From the NCBI RefSeq assembly GCF_036323495.1, contig NZ_AP028947.1:2604001-2668000 (forward strand): DNA of 64,000 nt. Direction: 5' to 3'. The notes under the pieces are model-generated. The model did not search any database. It was not told where the DNA came from and saw only the letters and a program-made list of their open reading frames with translations. The DNA comes from Limnobacter thiooxidans. Lineage in GTDB: Bacteria; Pseudomonadota; Gammaproteobacteria; Burkholderiales; Burkholderiaceae_B. The translations under genes were made by a program, and so were the position numbers. Position 1 is the first letter of the stretch, and every line of letters starts with the position of its first letter. Positions 1,596 to 28,779 of this stretch are shown in pieces.

Positions 1596-2687
1596 ATGCA
1601 CACACTCCACCCCACCACACTGTCAGATCACGAGAACAGCGCCCAACAAACCCTGCCTGCTGCCCATTGGGCCTACCTGTTCGGTGGCGCCGCAGATGAA
1701 TTGACCCTGAGAAAAAACACCACCGCCTGGCAACACATTGAATTACTGCCGCGCGTGTTGCGATCTATACAGGGTGGACACACCCGAATTCAGCTATTCG
1801 GTCGCGAATATGCACACCCAATCCTGGTGGCCCCCATGGCGTATCAACAACTTGCCCACCCCGCGGGTGAACTGGCCACTGCCCTGGCCGCTGCCGCACT
1901 GGAAGCCGGGTTTGTGTGCAGCACACAGGCCAGCACCTCACTTGAAAACATTGCCGAGCTTTACCTGCCTGAACAAGGCCGTGGACCTTTGTGGTTTCAG
2001 CTTTACATGCAACATGAACGGGAATTCACGCTTGAACTGGTTCAACGCGCAGAGCAGGCTGGCTACGAAGCCCTCGTGTTGACTGTGGACGCGCCCGTCA
2101 GCGGTGTGCGTGACAGGGAACGACAACACAGCTTTGCGCTGCCCGCAGGCATTGAGGCGGTAAACCTGAAACACCAGCCACTCCATGCACCCACACCATT
2201 TTCAAAAAGCGGCAGCGTGCTGTTTGATCACCACATGGCACACGCTCCCACCTGGACAGACGTGGACTGGCTGGCCAGCCACACCCGGCTGCCCGTGATC
2301 TTGAAAGGCATTACCCACCCGGCCGATGCCACCTCGGCGATTGAACACGGTGCGCAGGGTTTGATCGTGTCGAACCACGGAGGGCGAGTGCTTGACACCA
2401 TGCCGGCGACTGCAACTGTGTTGCCTTCAATCGTGAAAGCTGTACATGACCGTGTACCGGTGTTGGTCGATGGTGGCCTGCGCCGTGGCAGCGATGTGTT
2501 CAAGGCTGTTGCACTGGGGGCGACTGCCGTGCTGGTGGGTCGGCCCGTGTTGCATGGACTGGTTAATCAAGGCGCACAAGGTGTGGCGCATGTGCTACGC
2601 CTGCTTCGAGATGAGCTTGAAATCACCATGGCCCTGTGCGGTTGCGCAACACTTGCACAGGTTGACGAATCAATGATTGGGGGTTGA
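1596..2687 (+). CDS. FMN-dependent alpha-hydroxy-acid oxidase/dehydrogenase (LldD family)
   Basis: A 363-residue TIM-barrel flavoprotein. The signature SNHGGR (His261 as catalytic base, Arg264 for the substrate carboxylate), Lys237 in VILKGI, the early FMN-contact segment VAPMAYQQ and the C-terminal phosphate-binding segments DGGLRRG and VGRPVL are all present. The family oxidises L-2-hydroxyacids such as lactate, glycolate or mandelate to 2-oxoacids. The exact substrate and whether the electron acceptor is O2 or quinone cannot be read from the sequence. It begins two bases after the dioxygenase stop, suggesting an operon, and faces the reductase gene convergently. Confidence 0.85.
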   Translation: MHTLHPTTLSDHENSAQQTLPAAHWAYLFGGAADELTLRKNTTAWQHIELLPRVLRSIQGGHTRIQLFGREYAHPILVAPMAYQQLAHPAGELATALAAAALEAGFVCSTQASTSLENIAELYLPEQGRGPLWFQLYMQHEREFTLELVQRAEQAGYEALVLTVDAPVSGVRDRERQHSFALPAGIEAVNLKHQPLHAPTPFSKSGSVLFDHHMAHAPTWTDVDWLASHTRLPVILKGITHPADATSAIEHGAQGLIVSNHGGRVLDTMPATATVLPSIVKAVHDRVPVLVDGGLRRGSDVFKAVALGATAVLVGRPVLHGLVNQGAQGVAHVLRLLRDELEITMALCGCATLAQVDESMIGG

Positions 2688-2718
2688 TGCAACTACAAGG
2701 CTTGAAACAAATCGAGGC

Positions 2719-4122
2719 TCAGTACACATCGCGGCGGTATCGACCATTCAGGCTCAATTGCTTCACCGCATCTTCACCCAGGGTTTGCTTCAGTTGCGCA
2801 TCCACCTCAGCGGCCATGCCCTTCAAACTGCCACACACATAAATCGCGGCGCCCTGCTCCACCCATTCACGAACATCCGAAGCACATTCTGCCAGCACAT
2901 GTTGCACATAACGCCGCTGTGGCTGGTCCCTTGAAAAAACAAGGTCCGCACGACTCAACAGATCTTGTTTGATCCAGTCATCGATTTCTTCACGATAGTA
3001 GGAATCGAATTGCGCATGACGTTCACCAAAAATCAGCCACGTGGATGAAAGCGGAATGTCTTGATTCAGAACTCGCTCATTGAACCGTGCGCGCAGGTGG
3101 GCACGCAAACCGGCCAATCCAGTGCCGTTGCCAATCAAGAGCAAGGGCCTTGCTGTGTTTTCTGCCATGCGAAATGCAGGATGGGTGCGGATACGCAATT
3201 GAACCCTGTCATTCAAAATCGCACGCTGGGTAAGCCAACCCGATGCAAGGCCTGCGCTGCCATCTTCACGCACAGCCAAGCGAACCAGCAAATGCACCGC
3301 ACCGTCCTGCGGAATGGAGGCGATGGAATAATCGCGCAGGGCACCCGGTACACCGGGCACCTCAAGTTGAACCAGGTCGCCTGCCTGCCAGTCAGGAAGC
3401 ACTTCGCCGTCTGCGGGTACCAGCTCAATGTGATGTACTTCACGACCGCTGCTGTGGGGGTTCAAATGCTTTCGGGCTCGAATCAACCAAGGTGAAAACA
3501 CCTGCGTGTCGCGCCATTGAATTTTCTCGATTTCCAGCACACGCATCAAGCCCTGACGCCACGTCTCAATGCCTTTACTGGACCGGTCATTGGCCCTGCT
3601 ATCCACTTCAACCAGATCAAACAGGGGTCGGGCACCACACGATTGCAAGCGATGAAAAACAGCACGGCCAAAACCACAGAAATGCTTGTAACTGCTGTCG
3701 CCCAATGCCAATACGGCGAATTCCAACCCTGTCAGATTCAACGGCCTGCTTTGCATCACCTTGCTGACAAAAGGTGCTGCGCTGTCGGGCGCGTCACCTT
3801 CACCATAGGTGCTGGCAATACAAAGCAAACGCCTGCACTGTTGCAACTTCTCACTGGTCAGTTCACCCAACGAAACAAGCCTCACCGATTCACCACCATC
3901 GTGCAAAAAACGCGCAGTTTGAAAAGCCAGTTCCTCGGCCTGCCCGGTTTGGCTTGCATACGCCACCACACAGACGGAAAGGCTTTCGCCTGCATTCACG
4001 AAGCCAGCCACTTGCGCCTTGCGCGAAAACTCACGCTGCAGGTGCCTTTGAATAAAAAAAGCGCACAACAAACCGTAGCTGAGCAATACACCGGTGGCAT
4101 AAATCCATTTAAAGGCAATCAT
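2719..4122 (-). CDS. membrane-anchored flavodoxin/FNR-type NADPH flavoreductase
   Basis: A 467-residue protein built like the flavoprotein of sulfite or cytochrome P450 reductase. It has one N-terminal membrane segment (about 6-24), a flavodoxin domain (ASQTGQAEE phosphate loop near 57, ASTYGEGDAP), then an FAD/NAD(P) reductase half with RDYSIAS (FAD), GNGTGLAG (pyridine nucleotide) and YVCGS near the end. It would carry electrons from cytosolic NADPH through FAD and FMN to a membrane partner. No sulfite reductase genes are nearby. It is the last gene of the Fur-boxed PepSY-DUF2271-DUF4198-apbE operon and overlaps apbE by four bases (ATGA), so ferric reduction is the likely purpose (inference). 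Confidence 0.85.
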   Translation of the reverse strand: MIAFKWIYATGVLLSYGLLCAFFIQRHLQREFSRKAQVAGFVNAGESLSVCVVAYASQTGQAEELAFQTARFLHDGGESVRLVSLGELTSEKLQQCRRLLCIASTYGEGDAPDSAAPFVSKVMQSRPLNLTGLEFAVLALGDSSYKHFCGFGRAVFHRLQSCGARPLFDLVEVDSRANDRSSKGIETWRQGLMRVLEIEKIQWRDTQVFSPWLIRARKHLNPHSSGREVHHIELVPADGEVLPDWQAGDLVQLEVPGVPGALRDYSIASIPQDGAVHLLVRLAVREDGSAGLASGWLTQRAILNDRVQLRIRTHPAFRMAENTARPLLLIGNGTGLAGLRAHLRARFNERVLNQDIPLSSTWLIFGERHAQFDSYYREEIDDWIKQDLLSRADLVFSRDQPQRRYVQHVLAECASDVREWVEQGAAIYVCGSLKGMAAEVDAQLKQTLGEDAVKQLSLNGRYRRDVY

Positions 4123-5144
4123 GTCGTCAATTCCCTAAATGCAGGGGTTATGGTTTCAAGCAAGCTCCCGTCGTGCAATCGCTCGACAAAACGGACGGCA
4201 ATCTCGTGTTGAATCGCCAATTCGCGCGCCGTGTGAACACCCAGAACATTCAGCGCCGTAGCCCACCCATCGGCCCACATGCACGAAGCATGAACAACAC
4301 TGACCGAGGCCAAGCCATGCTCAATCGGCCTGCCATTGCGGGGGTCAATGGTGTGGCTGTAGATCTGGTCCTGGTATTGATAATGGCGTCGGTAGTCGCC
4401 CGACGTGGCCACAGCCAAACCATGCAATGCCAAACGGTTCAGCACCAAATCCTGTGCGTGGTTGAAAGCAGGCGGGTTTTCAAGATCAATCCACCAAGGC
4501 AAACCGCCAGGTCGAAACCCGTGCCCACGAAATTCGCCGCCCACCTCCACCATGACATGCTGTAAACCTGACGCAAGCAAGGCTTCAGCAATGCAGTCAA
4601 CGGCATACCCTTTTGCAATCGCTGAGAAATCAAGTGAAAGGCCACCGGTTTGGGTTATGTGGCAAGTCCCGTTTTCCACGCGCAATGCAGACCAGTCAGT
4701 GAAACGCAAAGCCTGTGAAATTTCATCTGCACCTGGGGGAAGAAAACCAGGGTCGGTGTAACGTGGGCCTGGTCCAAAACCCCACAGGTTCACCAAGCCA
4801 CCAGCAACAGGATTGAAAGCCCCACAGCTGAGGCCGGCCAAGGCCACCGAAGCCTTCAACACGGTGCAAAAGTCGAAAGGAATTTCTTGCACCGTGCCAG
4901 CAGGCGCGCAGTTGAATTGTGACAACAGCGAGTCTTCTTTCCATGTACTCATCTGATTGATAATCCGATCAAGTACCCGCTCAACCATTGCCTGAATTTT
5001 TGCGGTGTCTGCATCAAGATGGCTTTCATGCACCCACCGGATTTGCCAATGGGTTCCCATGGTGTGGCCCTGAACCTGGTGCAATTTGGCAAGCAGTGAA
5101 GGCTCAACCGGCTCCAGCTTGTGAGGAATCAACAACCGAATCAT
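4119..5144 (-). CDS. apbE: FAD:protein FMN transferase (ApbE)
   Basis: A 341-residue ApbE-family protein. Diagnostic segments are GHTMGTHWQIR near the N-terminus, LDFSAIAKGYAVD, the substrate-binding VEVGGEFRGHG, the DPRNGRPI segment and the late ADGWATALNVLG, which corresponds to the Mg-binding DALAT motif. ApbE transfers FMN from FAD to a Ser/Thr in D-x-x-(S/T)-G-A-(S/T) motifs of exported redox proteins. The DUF2271 protein two genes upstream has exactly such a motif and is the obvious target. No clear signal peptide is seen with this start, so whether the protein is anchored or exported is uncertain. The stop overlaps the start of the reductase gene (ATGA). Confidence 0.9.
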   Translation of the reverse strand: MIRLLIPHKLEPVEPSLLAKLHQVQGHTMGTHWQIRWVHESHLDADTAKIQAMVERVLDRIINQMSTWKEDSLLSQFNCAPAGTVQEIPFDFCTVLKASVALAGLSCGAFNPVAGGLVNLWGFGPGPRYTDPGFLPPGADEISQALRFTDWSALRVENGTCHITQTGGLSLDFSAIAKGYAVDCIAEALLASGLQHVMVEVGGEFRGHGFRPGGLPWWIDLENPPAFNHAQDLVLNRLALHGLAVATSGDYRRHYQYQDQIYSHTIDPRNGRPIEHGLASVSVVHASCMWADGWATALNVLGVHTARELAIQHEIAVRFVERLHDGSLLETITPAFRELTT

Positions 5145-5165
5145 GGGCGCTACCGTGCAGGAAAC

Positions 5166-6056
5166 TTAACCCGGCATCACTTCAAGGGTCAGGCTGTAGC
5201 CTGAACGCTTGACTGGGTCATCCAGCGTACCTGCTCGAATGGCGGCTGATGTAGCGGCAGGCTTGTCATCCTCATCGTCGTCCATGTCCACTTCAGGGCG
5301 TGCGGGGCGCTTGGGTGTGACATTGACCCAATACATGCCTGCCTCGGGCCACCTGATCTTGATCTCACCGTTCTGGTCAGTGGTCATGCGCATTTCGCCC
5401 AATTGGTCGCGGTAGCGGGAACCCGCAAGAATGACGACTGCGTCAAAGCCTGCGGCTGGCTTTCCATCGTTGAGAAACCTCAACACCGCTGATTCACCGG
5501 CTACCAGGTCATTCGGGTGGGTCACAGAAACCAGTTCAAGCCCGTCATTGGTCGGCTGTAAACTTTGCGTACTGGGCTTACCGCGTGTGACAAAGGTTTC
5601 AACCCGTGACTTGCTTTCCGTTACGCTGAGTTCTTCCGCATGGGCAGGAATTTCCTTTTGCAACATTTCGATTGTTCCCCGCACGCGTTTGGTTTCTCCG
5701 TTCAATTTGTACGAGGCCACCATGCCCTTGTTCACCAAGGCAATCCGGTAAGTACCCTGCTGCGCAAGCTTCAGATCAAACACGCTGCGGTAGCGGGTTT
5801 TGGTCTGATTTTCAGCATTGATCCGCGTGCCATCGGGTGCCGTGATCAGCAGGTTCTCCAGTGACGACGCATTGTGTTCAAAGTAAAAAATATCGTTGGA
5901 ACTTGCAGCATCCACGGTAACCCAGGGCTGCTCACCCGAGAAAATAGTGCCGGAAGGCAGCAGCCAGGAACGATGCGCTTCGGCGCTCAGTGGAGCAGCC
6001 AGGGCCAGCGCAGCACACAGTGACAACAAGGGGGTTTGCAGATTGAATTTTTTCAT
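5166..6056 (-). CDS. DUF4198 family periplasmic protein
   Basis: A 296-residue exported protein. A clear signal peptide ends at about residue 27 (LSAEA), leaving a mature protein that begins HRSWLLPS, the N-terminal His-aromatic pattern common in DUF4198 proteins. The rest looks like beta-sandwich or carboxypeptidase-regulatory-like domains (GMYWVNVTPKR). An acidic run DMDDDEDD sits near residue 250. Family members accompany TonB-dependent metal uptake; the biochemical role is unknown, with binding of a metal or ligand in the periplasm suspected. It lies between the DUF2271 gene and apbE in a tightly spaced operon. Confidence 0.82.
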   Translation of the reverse strand: MKKFNLQTPLLSLCAALALAAPLSAEAHRSWLLPSGTIFSGEQPWVTVDAASSNDIFYFEHNASSLENLLITAPDGTRINAENQTKTRYRSVFDLKLAQQGTYRIALVNKGMVASYKLNGETKRVRGTIEMLQKEIPAHAEELSVTESKSRVETFVTRGKPSTQSLQPTNDGLELVSVTHPNDLVAGESAVLRFLNDGKPAAGFDAVVILAGSRYRDQLGEMRMTTDQNGEIKIRWPEAGMYWVNVTPKRPARPEVDMDDDEDDKPAATSAAIRAGTLDDPVKRSGYSLTLEVMPG

Positions 6057-6073
6057 GGGTATTTCCTTCGAGG

Positions 6074-6589
6074 TCAGGGTTTGACAATCAGGCTCACTGC
6101 GCCCAGTTCATGGGTACCTGCGGCTTTCGATGTTTTTGCGGCCTTGGGTGGCCATTCAAACGGCACTTTCACCAGTTCACGCCCACCCACTTCGCGGGCC
6201 GCTTCAACCACCAGTTGGTATTGGCCGGGGGCCAGTTTGCTGAACTCGCCTTTGCTTCCAAACTGCACCGTGTGTTCACCCGGTGCACGTGTTGCACCGC
6301 TTATTCCATCCACAGGCATGTCCAGCTCTCGTCCGCTTTTTCGCCACCAGGCTCGCATGTCTTTCAGCCACTTGGTGCCCTCGTTGTTGCGCATTTTCAG
6401 GTCGTACCAGACTGCCAGGTTCGATACAAAAGCCTGGTCGGCTTTTTCAACCCACAGCGCCACATAAGGGCGGTGATACTCAGCCACGTTCAGGCGTGGA
6501 ATTTCCACCTTGATGGTCATGTCTGCCGCAGCCACAGGGAATGCGGCACCCATGGCAGTCAGTGCAGTCGCGAATTTGAATTTCAACAT
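6074..6589 (-). CDS. DUF2271 periplasmic protein with ApbE flavinylation motif
   Basis: 171 residues from the ATG at 6589, chosen because AAGGAG precedes it and a signal peptide starts there (cleavage after VAAA). A longer frame to 6613 would overlap the upstream gene. The mature protein holds D94-G-I-S-G-A-T100, matching the D-x-x-(S/T)-G-A-(S/T) consensus for covalent FMN attachment by ApbE, with Thr100 as the predicted acceptor. It is therefore probably a small periplasmic flavoprotein that passes electrons (inference). It lies between the PepSY and DUF4198 genes, with apbE in the same operon. Confidence 0.85.
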   Translation of the reverse strand: MLKFKFATALTAMGAAFPVAAADMTIKVEIPRLNVAEYHRPYVALWVEKADQAFVSNLAVWYDLKMRNNEGTKWLKDMRAWWRKSGRELDMPVDGISGATRAPGEHTVQFGSKGEFSKLAPGQYQLVVEAAREVGGRELVKVPFEWPPKAAKTSKAAGTHELGAVSLIVKP

Positions 6590-6602
6590 CAGCTCCTTGG
6601 AA

Positions 6603-7238
6603 TCAATGAACAAACAGGATCAACAACAGAACGGGCACAACAAACCCCAAACCCACCATGGGCCACGTGCTTGCGCGGACGTTGGCGTGAAACTTCAGAA
6701 TCAGGAGCCCTGTAATGGAGAAGATCAGACAGCCCAGCGAGAACACATCCAGGAACACGGTCCATGCCATGCCGGTGTGGCGCCCTTTGTGCAGGTCGTT
6801 GAGATAGGAAATCCAGCCCCGGTCGGTTGACTCGTATTCCACAACACCGTTAGACCGATCAATTCGCAACCATCCATCTCCACCGGGCCGTGGCAGTGAG
6901 AGGTAAATTTCTTCCGCACTCCATTCGGCTGGCTGGTTTGGCAAGGTGACATTCAATTGATTGCCCAGCCAGTTGCGCACACCACCGGGCAAAGGCGCGT
7001 GAGCTGGCTCGGACTTGTCCAACACCAGTTCAGGCATCACTTCCACGGGCAATTTGAACTCAAGCTGTACGACAGCGGGTGTGCTCGGTATGTCAGCCGC
7101 ATGGTTCAAGGTGATCCCAGTGAATGCAAACATCACCATGCCAATGAGGCTGATGGCAGAACTGACCCAATGCCACTGGTGCAGTTGCTTTAACCAGCGT
7201 GCACGGCTGGACACAGGATTTTCGGCGACGGATTTCAC
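6603..7238 (-). CDS. PepSY-associated membrane protein, first gene of the flavin/iron operon
   Basis: A 211-residue PepSY-TM type protein. Membrane segments are at about 25-47, 155-180 and 190-210. Histidines flank or lie in the membrane parts (LHQWHW, TLNHA, LHKGRHTG), as in PepSY iron reductases of the FoxB/PiuB kind, where such residues are thought to ligate haem. It would link the cytosolic flavoreductase to the periplasmic DUF2271 flavoprotein (inference). It is the first gene after a Fur-box-like site at 7285-7303 and ends 13 bases before the DUF2271 start. Confidence 0.82.
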   Translation of the reverse strand: MKSVAENPVSSRARWLKQLHQWHWVSSAISLIGMVMFAFTGITLNHAADIPSTPAVVQLEFKLPVEVMPELVLDKSEPAHAPLPGGVRNWLGNQLNVTLPNQPAEWSAEEIYLSLPRPGGDGWLRIDRSNGVVEYESTDRGWISYLNDLHKGRHTGMAWTVFLDVFSLGCLIFSITGLLILKFHANVRASTWPMVGLGFVVPVLLLILFVH

Positions 7239-7284
7239 GATGAAGAAAAAGTTGATTGAGAGGGAATCTGATTTAATTATTAAT

Positions 7285-7303
7285 GATAATACAAATCATT
7301 CTC
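7285..7303 (-). promoter_or_regulatory. Fur-box-like operator of the PepSY-DUF2271-DUF4198-apbE operon
   Basis: Read on the + strand, GATAATACAAATCATTCTC agrees with the 19-bp Fur consensus GATAATGATAATCATTATC at about 15 of 19 positions. It lies about 47-65 bases before the PepSY start, in an AT-rich intergenic region, where Fe-Fur could cover the promoter. This predicts repression of the operon when iron is plentiful. Confidence 0.72.
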
Positions 7304-7347
7304 AATATCTACTTTTAAAAAGCCAGTATCTGGAACACTTGGTTGAT

Positions 7348-8796
7348 CTACCGGGTTGACTGATCCAGTTCGGGCAGTGTTGACCAATCACCCCCCAATG
7401 ACTTGAACAGGTCAATTGAGGCCTGCAAACGAGCCGCCTGGCTGATCAATTGCTGATCTTGTGCAGAAAACAGGGCGCGTTGCGACTCAAGCACAGTGAG
7501 GAAATCGCCCGCCCCTTCGCGATAACGCAATTCCGCAAGCCTCAAGCTACGCTGCGCCAGGTCCACTTGCGTTTCCTGTAACACTGTTTGGCGAGCAGTC
7601 AGCTCTACATTGCCCAAGCCATCTTCCACTTCCTTCAAAGCTGCGCGAATAGCCTTTGCGTAAGTTTCGACCAGGATGGCCCGTTGCGTTTGCTGGGATT
7701 GAATTTGCAGATCTTGCTGCCCCCCGTCGAACAACACTTTCATGAGCGAAAGACCAAGGCCCACACTTTGCACAGGGTCAGCCATGCCCACCAGGATGCT
7801 GCTGGACAAACCATAGGAGCCGGTCAATGACAGGCTGGGCAAAAGCGCTGCACGGGCTGCGTCGATGTTGGCCGAAGCAGCAACAAGTGCAGCTTCAGCC
7901 GCACCCAGATCAGGTCTTCGGGTTAACAGAATGCTGGGCAAACTTGCGGGCACCACGGGCACCGACACTTGCGTGAATTCAAAAAGCGCTGGTGCGTAAC
8001 CTTGGGGAATTCGACCCAACAACAAGGCCAGCGCAGATGCAAGTTGCTGCTGTTGAAAACGCAGGTTCCCGAGTGCAATTTCCTGCGACAACACAACCGC
8101 CTGCTGCTGCATGACGTCAATTTGTGTGGCCACGCCATAACGCTGACGAGCTTGCGCGACGGCCAGTATTCGCTGGGCCACCGCTTGCTGTTCAACGGCA
8201 AGGCGAATTCGCGCATCGGTTTGCAACCACTGAAAGTACGTGCTGGCCACCGAGGTCAGCAGTGCAAGTCGGGCAGTTTGCCAGTCGTACCGGGTTGCGC
8301 TGAAGTCTGCTTCGCGTGCACGCGTTTGTGCGTCGAGCCGGCCAAACAAATCCAGTTCATAGCTCAGCGACACTCCGAGGTTGCTGTTGTCGTTCGAAGT
8401 GGAAGAAAAACCCTCTGCCCTGTTGTTGCGCGACGTGGTGTTTGCAGTGGCATTCACCGTGGGCAGTTCCGCTGCCCTTGACTGTTTCAAGGCAATGGAG
8501 GCCAGGCGAATCCGCTCCATGGCAATTCGCAAATCGGGGGCTGAGCTTTCGGCTTCTTTCAACAATTCCATCAAGGGTGGCGCCTTGAACTGCAACCACC
8601 AGTAACGATCAAACGCCTGGGCTTGAGCCAATGTCGCCGTGGCGGTTGACCAGTTTTGCGGCATGCTCACTGGAACAACTGCCGAGGTGGCGTCTTCGCC
8701 TGTAGGTACCGCAGCACAGGCTGAAACCAGCAGGGAAACGCACAATACAAATCGGCTTGAAGTCATCATTGTTCTTGAACCGGGTCTGGTTTTCAT
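7348..8796 (-). CDS. outer-membrane efflux lipoprotein (NodT/TolC family)
   Basis: A 482-residue outer-membrane factor. The signal peptide ends in the lipobox LVSAC (Cys27), so the mature protein is a lipoprotein of the NodT type. Two OEP repeats are visible, with the typical segments [12 protein letters not shown] and [25 protein letters not shown] ([11 protein letters not shown] follows). It forms the trimeric exit duct for the MacA-MacB pump encoded just upstream. Its ATG overlaps the macB stop (ATGA at 8793-8796), indicating translational coupling and supporting this start. Confidence 0.92.
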
Positions 8797-13469: not shown

Positions 13470-13634
13470 CTAAATTTTTCTGCTCACGCACAGGCCCAGC
13501 ACCGTCACGCCACCTAGCGAAAGCCATGACAAATAATCCCATGCACCCTCGCCCAACAACGCTGTAACTAGGCCTGCTGTTGTCGCAAACCCAACTGCAA
13601 TGGGCCAGCCCCACAAACGCATACCCCTGTTCAT
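13470..13634 (-). CDS. small two-helix membrane protein coupled to PepSY gene
   Basis: 54 codons including stop, starting with the ATG at 13634 that overlaps the stop of the PepSY gene (ATGA) and is preceded by AGGTGG. The 53-residue product starts MNRGMRLWG and has two hydrophobic segments (IAVGFATTAGLVTALLG and LSWLSLGGVTVLGLCV), so it should be an inner-membrane hairpin. No family is recognised with certainty. Similar small membrane proteins follow PepSY genes in TonB-receptor operons. The translational coupling is the main evidence that it is real. Confidence 0.65.
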   Translation of the reverse strand: MNRGMRLWGWPIAVGFATTAGLVTALLGEGAWDYLSWLSLGGVTVLGLCVSRKI

Positions 13635-14731
13635 GCTGCCACCTTTCTGTACTTGACCCACCACAAATACAAACCGCTGCCCAACACGATCAGGGTCAGG
13701 ATATCCAGTACAGCCCAGATGATTTTCATCGGCATGCCACCGTAATCACCAAAATGCAAAGGCTGGGAAACCTGCAAAGCTGTGAGATACCAAGGCAGGT
13801 TTTCGCTGGCAGTGACCTGCGCGGTGCTGGCATCCACCAACACAGGCTTGGAGGTGTGCGCGGTAACCGGTTCGCTTCCGCGCAAGAACACACCATAATG
13901 GTGTGGGCTTGAAAAGCCCGTACCGGGAAACGCAATGAACTGAATGGTTCGGTTAGGTTCAAGCGCCAAGGCAGAATCAACCGCCGCCTGCAGTGAACCC
14001 AATTGCTGCAACGGGGCCTTGCCCTTGTAAGGGGCTACCATGTCAGCCAGGTGTGTACGTTGCCAGTTCATGAACAACAGTTCTCCCCAGGCGTTGATTA
14101 CGCCAGTGCCGCCTACCACGAAAAACCACACCAAGGTCACAATGCCCAAGGCGTTGTGAATGTCCAGCCACTTGGTGGATTTTTCCTTGTGACGACGCAC
14201 TTCGACAAAACCCAGCTTACGCATGAAAGGCGCATACAACACCACGCCTGAAACCAGTGCAATCAAAAGTAAAAAGCCCATGAGACCCAGAAAAATCATT
14301 CCGGGCAAACCGGCAAATAGGTCCACGTGCAGGCTTTCAATGAAGTGCATCACTCCGCCTTCCAGCGCGGGCTCGGCCACAACAGCACCGGTGCGGGCGT
14401 CCACCGCCACCTGCTTCAAGCCTTCTTCCAGGTGCGCCGCCTTGGACAAGGTGACGTACCACACCCGATCGTCGTCCATGTCTTGGGATACAAACATGCC
14501 CACCTTGTCCGGGTACTGCGCAATGGCAATGTCCATCACGCGGTCCAGGCTGATGCGTGGGTGGTCTGCAGGCAACTCGGCGGGCTCCACATCGGCACCC
14601 GTCAGGTGTGCAATTTCATGTTCAAAAATCAGGGGCAAGCCGGTGAGCCCCAGAATCAACATGAACACCGTGCACACCAGGCTGGTCCATTTGTGCAGCC
14701 ACACCCAGGTGCGGATGGATTGCTTGGTCAT
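13631..14731 (-). CDS. PepSY-associated TM protein (PiuB/FoxB-like)
   Basis: A 366-residue inner-membrane protein with four membrane segments (about 10-32, 142-165, 195-220 and 335-358) and a periplasmic PepSY part between the first two. His residues sit at membrane positions (WLHKW, FEHE, ESLHVD, LDIHNALG), the pattern of siderophore-iron reductases such as FoxB. It probably releases iron from the siderophore brought in by the receptor encoded three bases upstream. It lies in a Fur-boxed unit of receptor, PepSY and small membrane protein. Confidence 0.85.
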   Translation of the reverse strand: MTKQSIRTWVWLHKWTSLVCTVFMLILGLTGLPLIFEHEIAHLTGADVEPAELPADHPRISLDRVMDIAIAQYPDKVGMFVSQDMDDDRVWYVTLSKAAHLEEGLKQVAVDARTGAVVAEPALEGGVMHFIESLHVDLFAGLPGMIFLGLMGFLLLIALVSGVVLYAPFMRKLGFVEVRRHKEKSTKWLDIHNALGIVTLVWFFVVGGTGVINAWGELLFMNWQRTHLADMVAPYKGKAPLQQLGSLQAAVDSALALEPNRTIQFIAFPGTGFSSPHHYGVFLRGSEPVTAHTSKPVLVDASTAQVTASENLPWYLTALQVSQPLHFGDYGGMPMKIIWAVLDILTLIVLGSGLYLWWVKYRKVAA

Positions 14732-14734
14732 GAC

Positions 14735-16894
14735 TTAGAAATCCAGTGAAGCAGACACCGTCAGGGTGCGTGGGTTGCCAATGGTCAAATAGCCTGCGCC
14801 GGGAAAGCCTCCGGCCGAAGCCCAGTAGTTGCGGTCGGTCAGGTTGTCGAGCCGCGCGCGCAGGGTCAGCGCCTGCTCATTGCCAACCGGCATCGTGTAA
14901 CGAACACCCAGATCAAAGCGAGTCCATGAAGGCAGTTCCTGTGTGTTGGCTGCATCTGCATATTGAGTGCTGGTGTACAAAGCGCGGGTTTCAAACGCCA
15001 GGCCCTTCAACTGCTCCGGGCTCCATTCCACGCCCACATTGGCTTGTGTAGACGGTGCACCGATTGCATCGCGGCCATTGGCATCCGTGTTCAGAAAACT
15101 CACGCCACCCAACACGGTGACGGTTTTGCTGGCCTTGCCAAAAGCCATGATCTCAAGGCCTTCATTGCTTTGGTCGCTGATCTGACCGAAAGTGTTGTTG
15201 GCATCCACCCCGTAATTGGGCTTTTCGCTTTGGAAGACCGACACCGAACCACCAATGTTGCCGCCGTCATATTTCAAACCAATCTCGGTTTGCTCGGTTG
15301 TGTAAGGTTTGAAAGCAATGCCTGCATTGGTGACTGGTGCACCGCCCGCACCTGTGGCGGGCGCTTTTTCACCCTGAACCAGGCCTTCGATGTAATTGGC
15401 ATACACCGAATACTGCGGGGTGATTTTGAACACCACGCCAGCCACTGGTGTTGTGGCGCTTTCCGAGTAGTTGTCGGTTTGCGCACCCGTGTTGCCGTTG
15501 AAGGTGGTCGCTTCAATCTGCTGATGACGCGCCCCTACGGTGACCAGCAAGCGATCACTCATGAAGGCCAGGGTGTCGGCCACTGCAACACTGGAAGTTT
15601 CCGTTTTATTCGTGACCAAGGGATTGCCGAACGTACCACTTGGGAACGCACCCAAGGCGGGTTCAGCCACGGCTGTGGGATTGTAAATATTGCCGGCAAA
15701 ACCGGCGAAGCTTGAAAAGTCGAATGCATTTTTCGCTTCATTTTCAAACATGGAAACAGAGGTACTCACCGTGTGTTTCACAGCACCTGTGTTGAACTTG
15801 AAACGCAAGCCCGCTTCCGCGGTTTGAATGGATTCTTCACGCACGTTGGCAAAGCGCAGCGAATTCGTGTCGCCCTGCGTATTGATTACATTCGGGTTGG
15901 CAAAGTTGCCAGACTCCCTGCTTTCACGCAGGCCACCTGCCAACCAGCCCGTCACGGTGTTGTTGAAATCGTATTCAGCGCGTACGGTACCAAAGGTGTC
16001 TTCCGTGTTGGAGAAGGTCCAGGGCTGGGCAACACTGCGGTCTGCGCGTGGCGTGGCCGGAATCGCGACACCCGGGTTGATCGTGATGTTGGGTTGCGAG
16101 CCGCGCAAATTGTGTTCCTGGTAACCCACATCGGCAGATATACGCAGCTTGTCACGGCGGAAATCGGCCCCCACCGCAAACAGGGTGAGTTCACGCGATT
16201 CCCCGTCAATGTTGGTATCGCCATCACGCTTGGCGAATGTGGCACGCAAGCCGGTGGATCCGTCGTTAAAGCGGCGGGCAAAGTCTCCAGCCACATAGGT
16301 TTCCCCGCCCTGCTGAAGCCCGACTGTGGCCTGGTTGATGTCGAAGTTGGGCGCACGTTTGGGTACCACGTTGATGGCACCACCCAAGCCACTGTTGCCA
16401 GGTGCGGCGCCATTCAGAAATGCACTGGTCCCGCGCAACACTTCCACGCGTTCAATAAACTCTGCAGCCAGGTACTGGCGGGGCAACACACCATACAAAC
16501 CGTTGTACGACATGTCGTCGGAATAAATGGGCAGGCCGCGCACCAGATACAACTGCGCAAAGTTGCCAAAGCCACGGGCCACGCGCACAGCCGGGTCGTT
16601 CAACAGCACTTCGCCCACGCTGGCCGCCTGCTGGTCTTGAATCAATTTGGAGGTGTAACTGGTCAGGGAAAACGGCGTGTCCATATTGGATTGCGTACCC
16701 AGCAAACCCACACGTCCACCGGAAGCCACCTGCCCCCCAGCGTATTCCGGCGCCAGGCCTTCTGCCGAGGCATCTGCACTGGCATTGACCTGCACTGCAG
16801 GCAACTCGGCATTCTGCGCCAAGGCATTGGAAGAAATAACAGCCAGCACAGCCAAAGCCAGTGCATTCATTTTTGGGGTTTGGATAGTCATCAT
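14735..16894 (-). CDS. TonB-dependent siderophore receptor
   Basis: About 719 residues from the ATG at 16894 (the frame runs open to a TTG at 16903). A signal peptide (ALALAVLAVISSNALA) is followed by a plug domain with DTPFSLTSYTSKLIQDQQA and RGFGNFAQLYLVRGLPI, VEVLRGTSAFLNG and GAINVVPKRAP, then a 22-strand barrel ending in TVSASLDF. These are marks of the ferric siderophore receptor subfamily. It is followed after three bases by the PepSY gene and preceded by a strong Fur-box match. Confidence 0.93.
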   Translation of the reverse strand: MMTIQTPKMNALALAVLAVISSNALAQNAELPAVQVNASADASAEGLAPEYAGGQVASGGRVGLLGTQSNMDTPFSLTSYTSKLIQDQQAASVGEVLLNDPAVRVARGFGNFAQLYLVRGLPIYSDDMSYNGLYGVLPRQYLAAEFIERVEVLRGTSAFLNGAAPGNSGLGGAINVVPKRAPNFDINQATVGLQQGGETYVAGDFARRFNDGSTGLRATFAKRDGDTNIDGESRELTLFAVGADFRRDKLRISADVGYQEHNLRGSQPNITINPGVAIPATPRADRSVAQPWTFSNTEDTFGTVRAEYDFNNTVTGWLAGGLRESRESGNFANPNVINTQGDTNSLRFANVREESIQTAEAGLRFKFNTGAVKHTVSTSVSMFENEAKNAFDFSSFAGFAGNIYNPTAVAEPALGAFPSGTFGNPLVTNKTETSSVAVADTLAFMSDRLLVTVGARHQQIEATTFNGNTGAQTDNYSESATTPVAGVVFKITPQYSVYANYIEGLVQGEKAPATGAGGAPVTNAGIAFKPYTTEQTEIGLKYDGGNIGGSVSVFQSEKPNYGVDANNTFGQISDQSNEGLEIMAFGKASKTVTVLGGVSFLNTDANGRDAIGAPSTQANVGVEWSPEQLKGLAFETRALYTSTQYADAANTQELPSWTRFDLGVRYTMPVGNEQALTLRARLDNLTDRNYWASAGGFPGAGYLTIGNPRTLTVSASLDF

Positions 16895-16925
16895 GACACT
16901 CAAGTAAAAATAACAATTCCGTAAT

Positions 16926-16944
16926 TATAATGATAATAATTACT
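16926..16944 (-). promoter_or_regulatory. Fur-box-like operator of the TonB receptor-PepSY operon
   Basis: TATAATGATAATAATTACT on the + strand agrees with the Fur consensus at 15 of 19 positions and is surrounded by further NATWAT hexamers (AATTATAATGATAATAATT). It lies 30-50 bases before the receptor start and about 80 bases before the divergent permease gene, so it could in principle affect both. Confidence 0.78.
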
Positions 16945-27168: not shown

Positions 27169-28779
27169 GTGCAAGGCAAAACCAGAAAACAACTTTTACC
27201 TTCCTTGCTGCTCACCAGCGTGCTTGCGGGCCTGCTCACACTCACGGCTTGCAGTTCAGACACCAGCCCTGTAGCCACCAACGCCACAAACACCACGCCA
27301 CAGGAAGTGCCCTTCACTGGTGCACCCATCATGCTGGACTTGAGTTGCGACCAGGCCACTTACCCCTCTGCAAAAATGCTGCAGTGTGAACTGGGCAATG
27401 TAGCCCGCACACTGGAAGCCAATCTGGAGCAACTCAACCCACTGTTTGTCGCGCAGCAAATTCAGCAAACCGGCGCAAACATCCAGTTTCTGCTGCAACG
27501 CAGCCTGCAGGACCCCAGCTGGAACCTGCCACCGGCAATCGGCAACAGCCCAGTCACCCCGCTTTGTGCTGCCGGTGCAGGACCTTGCGTGGGCGACCCA
27601 TTTCGCTACCCTGGCGTGAACGGCCCCGATGGCGATGTGTTTTACACGCAGGAAGCAGAAGTCACACCCGTGGTGTATTACGACCAAGGCTGCGCCCGCA
27701 TTTCCGGGCAAGTGTGGAAACCCAGAACAACCGGCAACTCAACACTGCCAGCCGTCATCATCAAAAATGGTTCGGTGCAGGCCAATGAAGCCCTGTACTG
27801 GTGGGCTGCGCAAGCGCTGGTGCGTGCCGGTTACATGGTGTTGACCAACGATCCACGTGGACAAGGCTTGTCCGACTTCGCTACACCCACCGGCGAGCAG
27901 GGCGGCAACGTCAACGGAAAAGTCTTTTACGAAGGCCTGGTCAACGACATTGACTTCCTGATGTCCACACCGGGCAAGCCCTACCCGCATGAACAGCGTT
28001 GCACCGGCACCTACCCCACGGCAACCCAGGCATTCAATCCATTTCATGCCCAACTCGACCCCAATCGCATTGGCGCGGCGGGTCATTCTTACGGTGCAGG
28101 TGGTGTTAGTTGGGTGCAAAGCTACGGCGCGCCCGACAGCCGACCCTGGCCGGGCTTGCTCAGCCCCACCAACCCGCTGAAAGCCATTGTGGCCTGGGAT
28201 GCACTGGGCTCAAGAAACACGCCTGCAGCCGCCACGCTGACCAGTCTGATCGACAGCAGCACTGTGAACCGGCTTCCACTTGTCGGCTTGTTGACCATGC
28301 CACAAGACGCACCACCCATTAGCCCGCGCGTACCCGCTTTGGGCTTCACCTCGGAATACGGATTCACCCCGGTGCCCTTCGTGCGCAACATGCCACGCGA
28401 TGAACATCTGGCCGGCTTCAAGGAATGGTCTGCAGCCAATGTGCCTGCCTTCAACATCACGATTGCGGGCAGCACGCACCTGGACTATTCACCGGGTCCC
28501 GCGCTGCCTGCAAGCTCCTGGTGCAAGGAAATCAAAAACAACGCCTGCGTGGGCGGGTGGGCTCAACCCATGATCACCCACTACACAGTGGCCTGGTTTG
28601 ACCGCTTCTTGAAAGTGCCTGGAGAAAAGGGATTCGCAGATGCAGACGCACGCCTGCTGGATGACGCCACATGGGCTGAACGAATGAGCTTTCATTTTGC
28701 AAGCGCCAGAAAATTCAGCACCCGGGACGGTCGCAGGGTGGCGACGGAAGACATACGCTTGAGCTACGCAGAGAAATAA
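27169..28779 (+). CDS. exported alpha/beta hydrolase, probable lipoprotein
   Basis: 536 residues starting at a GTG with GAGG eight bases upstream. The signal peptide ends at the lipobox LTAC (about residue 28). The nucleophile elbow GHSYGAGG (near residue 307) and a late His in STHLDYS (near 440) outline the Ser-Asp-His triad; TNDPRGQGLSDF is the early oxyanion-region strand. It probably cleaves esters or amides at the cell envelope. The substrate is unknown. It faces the TetR gene convergently. Confidence 0.78.
   Translation: MQGKTRKQLLPSLLLTSVLAGLLTLTACSSDTSPVATNATNTTPQEVPFTGAPIMLDLSCDQATYPSAKMLQCELGNVARTLEANLEQLNPLFVAQQIQQTGANIQFLLQRSLQDPSWNLPPAIGNSPVTPLCAAGAGPCVGDPFRYPGVNGPDGDVFYTQEAEVTPVVYYDQGCARISGQVWKPRTTGNSTLPAVIIKNGSVQANEALYWWAAQALVRAGYMVLTNDPRGQGLSDFATPTGEQGGNVNGKVFYEGLVNDIDFLMSTPGKPYPHEQRCTGTYPTATQAFNPFHAQLDPNRIGAAGHSYGAGGVSWVQSYGAPDSRPWPGLLSPTNPLKAIVAWDALGSRNTPAAATLTSLIDSSTVNRLPLVGLLTMPQDAPPISPRVPALGFTSEYGFTPVPFVRNMPRDEHLAGFKEWSAANVPAFNITIAGSTHLDYSPGPALPASSWCKEIKNNACVGGWAQPMITHYTVAWFDRFLKVPGEKGFADADARLLDDATWAERMSFHFASARKFSTRDGRRVATEDIRLSYAEK

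Follow-up and report, generated by a model that had tools for sequence, protein, structure and literature searches.

A PepSY, DUF2271 and ApbE operon of Limnobacter thiooxidans as a probable periplasmic ferric reductase, with a flavin transferase that has no recognisable leader

Introduction

A five-gene operon of Limnobacter thiooxidans raises two questions: could its products carry electrons from NADPH to iron in the periplasm, and on which side of the inner membrane would the predicted flavin carrier receive its flavin? The operon occupies 2719-7238 on the minus strand of the 64,000-nucleotide stretch of contig NZ_AP028947.1 analysed here (positions 2,604,001 to 2,668,000), which we refer to as the window. 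The open reading frames (ORFs) and Pfam matches identify its products, in order, as a PepSY membrane protein, a DUF2271 protein, a DUF4198 protein, an ApbE flavin transferase and a flavodoxin/FNR reductase. With a probability of about 0.7, the operon encodes an iron-repressed periplasmic ferric reductase, in which NADPH supplies electrons that pass the inner membrane and reach periplasmic iron. It would link NADPH, a predicted covalent periplasmic flavin and iron uptake.

Clusters of PepSY, ApbE, DUF2271 and DUF4198 genes were described in 2021 by Meheust et al., who proposed a role in iron reduction (PMC8238504). The operon belongs to this published class, and the interpretation in the first-pass annotation, a flavin-based electron route from NADPH to periplasmic iron, is largely right and not new. 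The added value of our analysis lies in the puzzle of where ApbE acts and in a histidine pattern of DUF4198, neither of which the first-pass annotation mentions. Papers are cited by PMC identifier, and statements about them refer to the parts of each that were covered.

Organization and putative iron control of the operon

The genes are closely packed. The genes for PepSY (6603-7238, GTG start, 211 residues; PF16357, PepSY_TM_like_2, 255 bits), DUF2271 (6074-6589, 171 residues; PF10029, 178 bits), DUF4198 (5166-6056, 296 residues; PF10670, 174 bits) and ApbE (4119-5144, 341 residues; PF02424, 251 bits) are separated by gaps of 13 bp (with DUF2271 starting from the ATG at 6589), 17 bp and 21 bp, as calculated from the ORF coordinates. 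apbE shares a 4-bp overlap with the flavodoxin/FNR gene (2719-4122, 467 residues; Flavodoxin_1, 90 bits, and NAD_binding_1, 35 bits). Fur-like sites were scored against a 19-bp consensus. The site at 7285-7303 matches it at 15 of 19 positions; when the 109-bp upstream region was shuffled 500 times, one shuffle scored as high. A minus-strand pair of -35- and -10-like elements (7305-7276) overlaps the site; two such pairs were found, compared with a shuffle mean of 0.5. The ORFs, the Pfam domains and the consensus match at 7285-7303 together bear out the tight five-gene operon behind a Fur-like site that the first-pass annotation had described.

For comparison with relatives we used 80 named loci, the best 80 of at least 461 confirmed, a sample that leans to close relatives. 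At least 13 consensus matches were found in 55 of 80 regions upstream of PepSY matches (79 loci, with L068 counted twice), compared with 13 of 400 shuffles and one of 76 control segments. These shuffle and control counts, and the recurrence of the site in relatives, led us to reject a chance origin. The operon is probably iron-controlled. A five-gene operon of Caulobacter is regulated by Fur and iron (PMC3751524).

Within the 64-kb window, a score of 15 of 19 is attained at one further place (16926-16944), which precedes a TonB receptor gene. It belongs to a second iron unit (13631-16944), in which a TonB siderophore receptor gene (14735-16903, minus strand) is followed by a PepSY_TM gene (13631-14731). 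This unit resembles the hiuAB/foxAB-type pairs.

A proposed path for electrons

We propose that Fur leaves the promoter under iron scarcity. NADPH would then reduce FAD, and FAD in turn FMN, in the membrane-anchored flavodoxin/FNR protein at the cytosolic face. Two stacked haems, bound by histidines of PepSY, would carry the electrons to the other side of the membrane. A covalent FMN on Thr100 of DUF2271 would accept them on the periplasmic side and reduce ferric iron, which would probably enter as a catecholate complex through the adjacent Fiu-like TonB receptor. The N-terminal histidine site of DUF4198 would take or shield the released metal, and ApbE would attach the FMN, most likely in the cytosol ahead of DUF2271 export. 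We infer from sequence the haems, the membrane topology, the order of the carriers, the substrate, the metal role of DUF4198 and the place of flavinylation; flavinylation of this DUF2271, haem in this PepSY and a ferric siderophore as the substrate are predictions.

The last operon protein has one N-terminal hydrophobic segment by hydropathy and is predicted to be membrane-anchored. It is a CysJ/P450-reductase-like protein by Pfam, NCBIfam and alignment, and scores below the CysJ equivalog cut-off (237.4 bits vs 668.15). It aligns with CysJ (PDB 6efv), including the SRDQ and C-terminal RDVY segments, and its RDYSIAS segment aligns with RLYSIAS in CysJ. In CysJ, SRDQ binds NADPH and the C-terminal RDVY segment stacks on FAD. 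Among 25 loci of relatives, 16 are split as in the window (13 of the 16 with all five genes), and nine are of a second type, in which ApbE lies beside one fused chain of 715-840 residues and a DUF2271 gene, with no DUF4198 match. In the two of these nine fused chains that were run against Pfam, a single protein holds PepSY_TM, Flavodoxin_1 and NAD_binding_1 matches, which supports direct transfer from the reductase to PepSY.

PepSY has three hydrophobic segments by hydropathy (residues 25-43, 163-181 and 192-210), interpreted as three helices. In an alignment of 37 chosen sequences, His23, His150 and His211 are invariant and His46 and His184 are kept in at least 90%. With the positive N-terminus placed inside, His23 and His184 would lie at the inner face and His46, His150 and His211 at the outer face. 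FoxB reportedly has two haems, and a model of HiuB also shows two (PMC11334425, PMC13001220). The five-histidine pattern predicted for both faces fits two haems as in these proteins, and the window PepSY is probably a wire with two haems.

The DUF2271 protein carries DGISGAT at residues 94-100, with Thr100 as the predicted FMN site, behind a Sec-type leader (MLKFKFATALTAMGAAFPVAAAD). The motif and signal peptide noted in the first-pass annotation are thus present, the leader being assigned by eye. It is weakly hydrophobic, with no 19-residue stretch reaching a mean hydropathy of 1.5. The form [ST]GA[ST] occurs in 65 of the 80 named loci, 14 of 16 family loci and 101 of 120 listed protein matches (the best 120 of 7172), and Ser or Thr at the end of the motif (position 100) is kept in all of them: 80, 16 and 120. 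A loss of the motif from most homologous operons, which the first-pass annotation had named as refuting its reading, was accordingly not seen. A chance motif was rejected on the retention of Ser or Thr at position 100 in 80 of 80 named loci. The pattern [DN]xx[ST]GA[ST] is absent from the other four operon proteins of the window. Another ApbE target in the operon was also rejected, with this pattern in none of 80 PepSY, 79 DUF4198 and 66 flavodoxin/FNR matches. A DUF2271 protein of Amantichitinum ursilacus became flavinylated when paired with its ApbE, and replacing the predicted Thr by alanine prevented this (PMC8238504).

Proteins of 488-518 residues ending in DUF2271 occur at five loci in four genomes (L196-L200). 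By eye, none has the strict [ST]GA[ST] (L200 keeps GAT), and all five keep the final Thr. Four of the loci, in three genomes (L196-L199), are ApbE-DUF2271 fusions with degraded motifs and a retained Thr, and L200 gives no ApbE domain match. In the Limnobacter thiooxidans genome, a weak partial DUF2271 match of 21 bits (L058, G000:C1:1169468-1169605) falls in a 224-residue frame, and similar matches occur in four genus members; our guess is that it is perhaps a FlgD-like Ig domain.

PepSY might instead reduce the ferric siderophore itself, as proposed for FoxB and HiuB, with the FMN of DUF2271 serving another periplasmic acceptor or acting as a buffer or shuttle. The covered parts of the HiuB paper mention no flavinylated partner for FoxB or HiuB (PMC13001220), and the PepSY_TM gene at 13631-14731 follows a TonB receptor gene that has a Fur-like site of its own. 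However, a PepSY match accompanies DUF2271 in 79 of the 80 named loci (the exception, L089, starts near a contig end, and the match at L068 is split over two frames), and Ser or Thr ends the motif in every one of the 80. We consider reduction by PepSY alone improbable.

Distribution of the operon and weighing of the evidence

All five genes are together in 59 of the 80 named loci. Six have the reductase without ApbE (L126, L128, L131, L132, L137 and L138) and five have neither (L068, L112, L114, L116 and L122, loci that are short or truncated close to these genes). DUF2271 scores over the cut-off in 24 of 120 genomes, the present one included, and in 65 of 398 in a phylum-wide sample. The 15 other genus genomes lack a close counterpart to DUF2271 and to the downstream efflux outer-membrane protein, and also a close full-length FMN_dh; therefore, the region 1596-8796 may have been acquired laterally. 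The GC content of the operon (0.541) is like that of the window (0.540).

Several observations weigh against the ferric reductase reading. Pfam finds no FAD-binding match in the window reductase. PDB sequence searches gave no useful relative for PepSY (profile A4) or DUF2271. The strict [ST]GA[ST] is absent from 15 of the 80 relatives, including Caulobacter segnis (DGVTSPT), with Thr kept throughout. Nine of the 80 named loci have ApbE with no flavodoxin/FNR match (L088, L091, L096, L102, L104, L106, L113, L123 and L124); by this count, the electron donor is apparently not universal, or not recognised. The sole characterised DUF4198 that we found binds nickel (PMC12537917). Within the genus, DUF2271 exceeds the cut-off in this genome only, of 16, suggesting that the operon is dispensable to its relatives. 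Finally, the genome has no FeoB-strength match (the best, 51.9 bits, falls in frames that resemble other GTPases by length) and no Nramp match, which weakens a simple story of reduction followed by uptake through FeoB. ZIP-family matches are found at two places in the genome. The route from NADPH through FAD/FMN, PepSY and FMN-bearing DUF2271 to iron given in the first-pass annotation fits most of our tests and is similar to the published proposal (PMC8238504).

The ApbE protein and the place of flavinylation

The window ApbE scores 250.7 bits against PF02424 (cut-off 25.6) and lies below the NCBIfam equivalog cut-off (183.6 vs 498). The protein starts MIRLLIP (MIRLLIPHKLEPVEPSLLAKLHQVQGHTMGT), and its longest ORF has no hydrophobic leader. 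No signal peptide or lipobox is recognisable in it, and MIRLLIPHKLEPVEPSLLAKLHQVQGHT precedes MGT. A wrongly placed start was rejected: the ORF already begins at the earliest start codon following a stop, and the stretch ahead of the domain holds no hydrophobic leader.

Signal peptides were assessed in relatives by our own measure, an apolar run of at least nine residues before the domain in the longest ORFs, together with hydropathy, in place of SignalP; the pattern dropped six of 97 DUF2271 and three of 95 DUF4198 rows. Such a run is present in 92 of 92 DUF4198 and 85 of 91 DUF2271 proteins and in nine of 94 operon ApbEs (L130, L089, L111, L136, L037, L038, L032, L042 and L056). By eye, only L130 and L038 among these nine look signal-peptide-like. 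In a separate set, 58 of 67 loci have an ApbE match, and ApbEs with no operon partner within 1.5-kb flanks were classed as unlinked. The apolar run occurs in four of 19 linked (L146, L147, L155 and L157) and 31 of 39 unlinked ApbEs and a lipobox-like segment in none of 19 and 16 of 39, respectively; these counts retain some rows in both groups that were mis-parsed, with the domain start missed (for example L155, L164, L262 and L263). A short element of the RVLIP form precedes the domain in 65 of 85 split-type operon ApbEs, and in 29 of 63 at named loci an ATG stands two residues ahead of where the element begins.

A tree was built of 85 ApbEs, comprising 30 of the 86 split-type proteins (window included), all nine of the fused type and 46 others. 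A branch with 99/90 support sets the 39 linked ApbEs apart, in an analysis whose bootstrap had not settled. Together with the missing leader, this one supported group suggests flavinylation before Sec export. The operon copy is the sole ApbE match in the Limnobacter thiooxidans genome. Of 14 other genomes with a split-type operon, 11 have one ApbE, which in one of the 11 (G028, L038) carries a signal-peptide-like leader. A twin-arginine-like motif is found in none of 93 DUF2271 proteins, and Tat export of a folded, flavinylated DUF2271 was rejected on this count. For this genome, the simplest reading is that FMN is attached in the cytosol ahead of Sec export. Most likely, ApbE is cytosolic and DUF2271 is flavinylated there before it enters Sec.

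We also put forward a fuller version, tentatively and at somewhat less than even odds. DUF2271 would be flavinylated by cytosolic ApbE and threaded unfolded through Sec with its FMN, and no FAD would be needed in the periplasm. A single loss, in the common ancestor of those ApbEs that are linked to DUF2271 and PepSY, would have removed the ApbE signal peptide, which apparently reappeared in L130 and L038. DUF4198 would carry ferrous iron via its N-terminal amine and conserved histidines. Flavinylation ahead of export, if true, would be an exception to the view that ApbE acts on exported targets only after they have left the cytosol, and would mean that a chain already carrying flavin goes through the Sec channel.

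Alternatively, ApbE is exported by a route hidden from sequence, and flavinylation is periplasmic as for other ApbEs. A 2025 review states that the majority of ApbEs from bacteria and archaea appear to be secreted, and it names cytosolic ApbEs for a soluble fumarate reductase of Klebsiella and for eukaryotes (PMC12052999). The signal-peptide-like leaders of L130 and L038 would fit an exported enzyme, and so would the ApbE-DUF2271 fusions L196-L199, whose starts look signal-peptide-like by eye. Moreover, in five of the six genomes with an ApbE-less operon, the only ApbE found lies elsewhere and by eye bears a lipoprotein-like leader (L267-L270 and L272); the sixth has two ApbEs, one of which (L271) has such a leader. 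Hidden export would, however, have to hold for the 85 of 94 operon ApbEs that lack the apolar run present in nearly all DUF4198 and DUF2271 partners, and for linked ApbEs with no lipobox-like segment in 19, compared with 16 of 39 unlinked ones. In the window's own genome there is no second ApbE match to do the work. We regard this alternative as unlikely, and continue to favour flavinylation in the cytosol. The leadered ApbEs in genomes with ApbE-less operons suggest that this kind of target may be flavinylated on either side of the membrane.

A literature search that included parts of PMC12052999 and PMC8238504 turned up no previous account of an ApbE that is cytosolic while its target is exported; this is not proof of absence.

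The DUF4198 protein as a candidate metal carrier

The predicted mature N-terminus of the exported DUF4198 protein is His28, which is present in 94 of 94 loci, directly preceded by a signal-peptidase-like triplet in 93. His61 and His180 are each present in 90 of 94 loci. Among 120 listed protein matches, His28 is found in 118 and His61 and His180 in all 120. Counted from His28, these next conserved histidines are mature positions 34 and 153. From this pattern the operon DUF4198 may carry metal, and it is our inference that the metal is ferrous iron. Its gene is the most strongly iron-regulated of the Caulobacter cluster (PMC3751524), and the conserved histidines would hint at a function for this domain.

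The precedent is a DUF4198 protein of Ideonella sakaiensis (IsDUF4198, PDB 9GCB), which was crystallised with Ni2+ on its N-terminal His and His18 and binds it with a Kd of 18 nM (PMC12537917). On this evidence, the operon might handle another metal: DUF4198 would then carry nickel (or cobalt), and the redox chain would be secondary. The metals named for thermal shifts of IsDUF4198 are Ni, Zn, Co and Cu, with Fe(II) not named in the covered parts, and a search of the main text found no mention of iron, ApbE, PepSY, flavin or siderophore (PMC12537917). Against a nickel role stand the Fur-like sites ahead of the operon, the Fiu- and PiuC-like genes next to it, and histidines at mature positions 34 and 153 and not 18; in addition, DUF4198 profiles searched against the PDB did not return 9GCB. 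We judge a nickel or cobalt carrier very unlikely and retain ferrous iron as the candidate cargo. The profiles gave weak matches to 9mhi and 9mhk over the C-terminal part. These chains are labelled phosphoribosylglycinamide formyltransferase and match at an E value of about 1e-5; the label may be wrong.

Comparison with known systems

The clusters of Meheust et al. share with the operon a PF16357/PF03929 PepSY, ApbE, DUF2271, DUF4198, a Fur link and proposed iron reduction (PMC8238504). In the window we find the features of that class, namely a PepSY-like gene with ApbE and DUF2271, a target with a leader (by eye and by the run measure) and [S/T]GA[S/T]. The published set includes 1077 PepSY-like genes with an NAD-binding domain, whereas here the flavodoxin/FNR protein is separate and anchored. 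That study used a cognate ApbE construct with its signal peptide truncated and, in the covered parts, did not comment on operon ApbEs without a signal peptide (PMC8238504).

The Caulobacter operon (CC_3059-3063, CCNA_03155-03159) has five products in the same order by annotation, a transporter, DUF2271, DUF4198, ApbE and a sulfite reductase flavoprotein (PMC3751524, PMC12004947). Transposon insertions in it reduce fitness in EDTA (PMC12004947). Caulobacter segnis, a relative of the genetically studied Caulobacter, differs from the window in having DGVTSPT for DGISGAT (L111, 9001-9513); this comparison was made with C. segnis and not with C. crescentus. FoxB and HiuB are likewise PepSY membrane reductases with histidine-ligated haems (PMC11334425, PMC13001220), which in the window protein are predicted. 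They differ in that no DUF2271 or ApbE partner is mentioned in the covered parts of these papers, and the window PepSY is a three-helix PF16357 protein. IsDUF4198 also has a His directly after the signal peptide (PMC12537917); its second ligand is His18, unlike the operon type. The DUF4198 of Hydrogenophaga IBVHS1 in the same paper has a signal peptide different from that of the operon copy of the same strain (L059). The covalent FMN predicted here on an extracytosolic carrier is a feature of NQR/RNF and other ApbE-dependent carriers. The operon differs from NQR/RNF in its membrane part, and Pfam finds no NqrB/C-like gene in it. We found no description of the leaderless operon ApbE, the DUF4198 histidine pattern or the five PepSY histidines in the literature searched.

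Neighbouring genes and further observations

An ORF of 536 residues at 27169-28779 of the window gives no Pfam match at 1e-8. Three plus-strand genes lie in a row at 22-2687, convergent with the operon. The first encodes a Fiu-like TonB receptor (22-867 for the C-terminal part within the window; 748 residues in the genome, L057) that scores 745.1 bits against NCBIfam Fiu (cut-off 686); it is a possible supplier of ferric catecholate. The second encodes a PiuC/YbiX-like Fe(II)/2OG dioxygenase (878-1594; NF003975, 310.7 bits, cut-off 180). TonB receptors of the Fiu/PiuA kind and PiuC genes are connected with cefiderocol uptake in pathogens (PMC12004947). PiuC matches occur within the fetched stretch in 15 of the 80 named loci, all 15 with a TonB receptor match; one or two gene copies in every 4 Mb would predict about 0.3 or 0.7 loci. 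The loci are related and hence not independent.

The third gene encodes an FMN_dh protein of the FMN-dependent alpha-hydroxy-acid dehydrogenase family by Pfam (1596-2687). FMN_dh is also found at L126 and L137, together with PiuC and TonB receptor matches, and in another member of the genus (G015) a split FMN_dh match adjoins a PiuC match.

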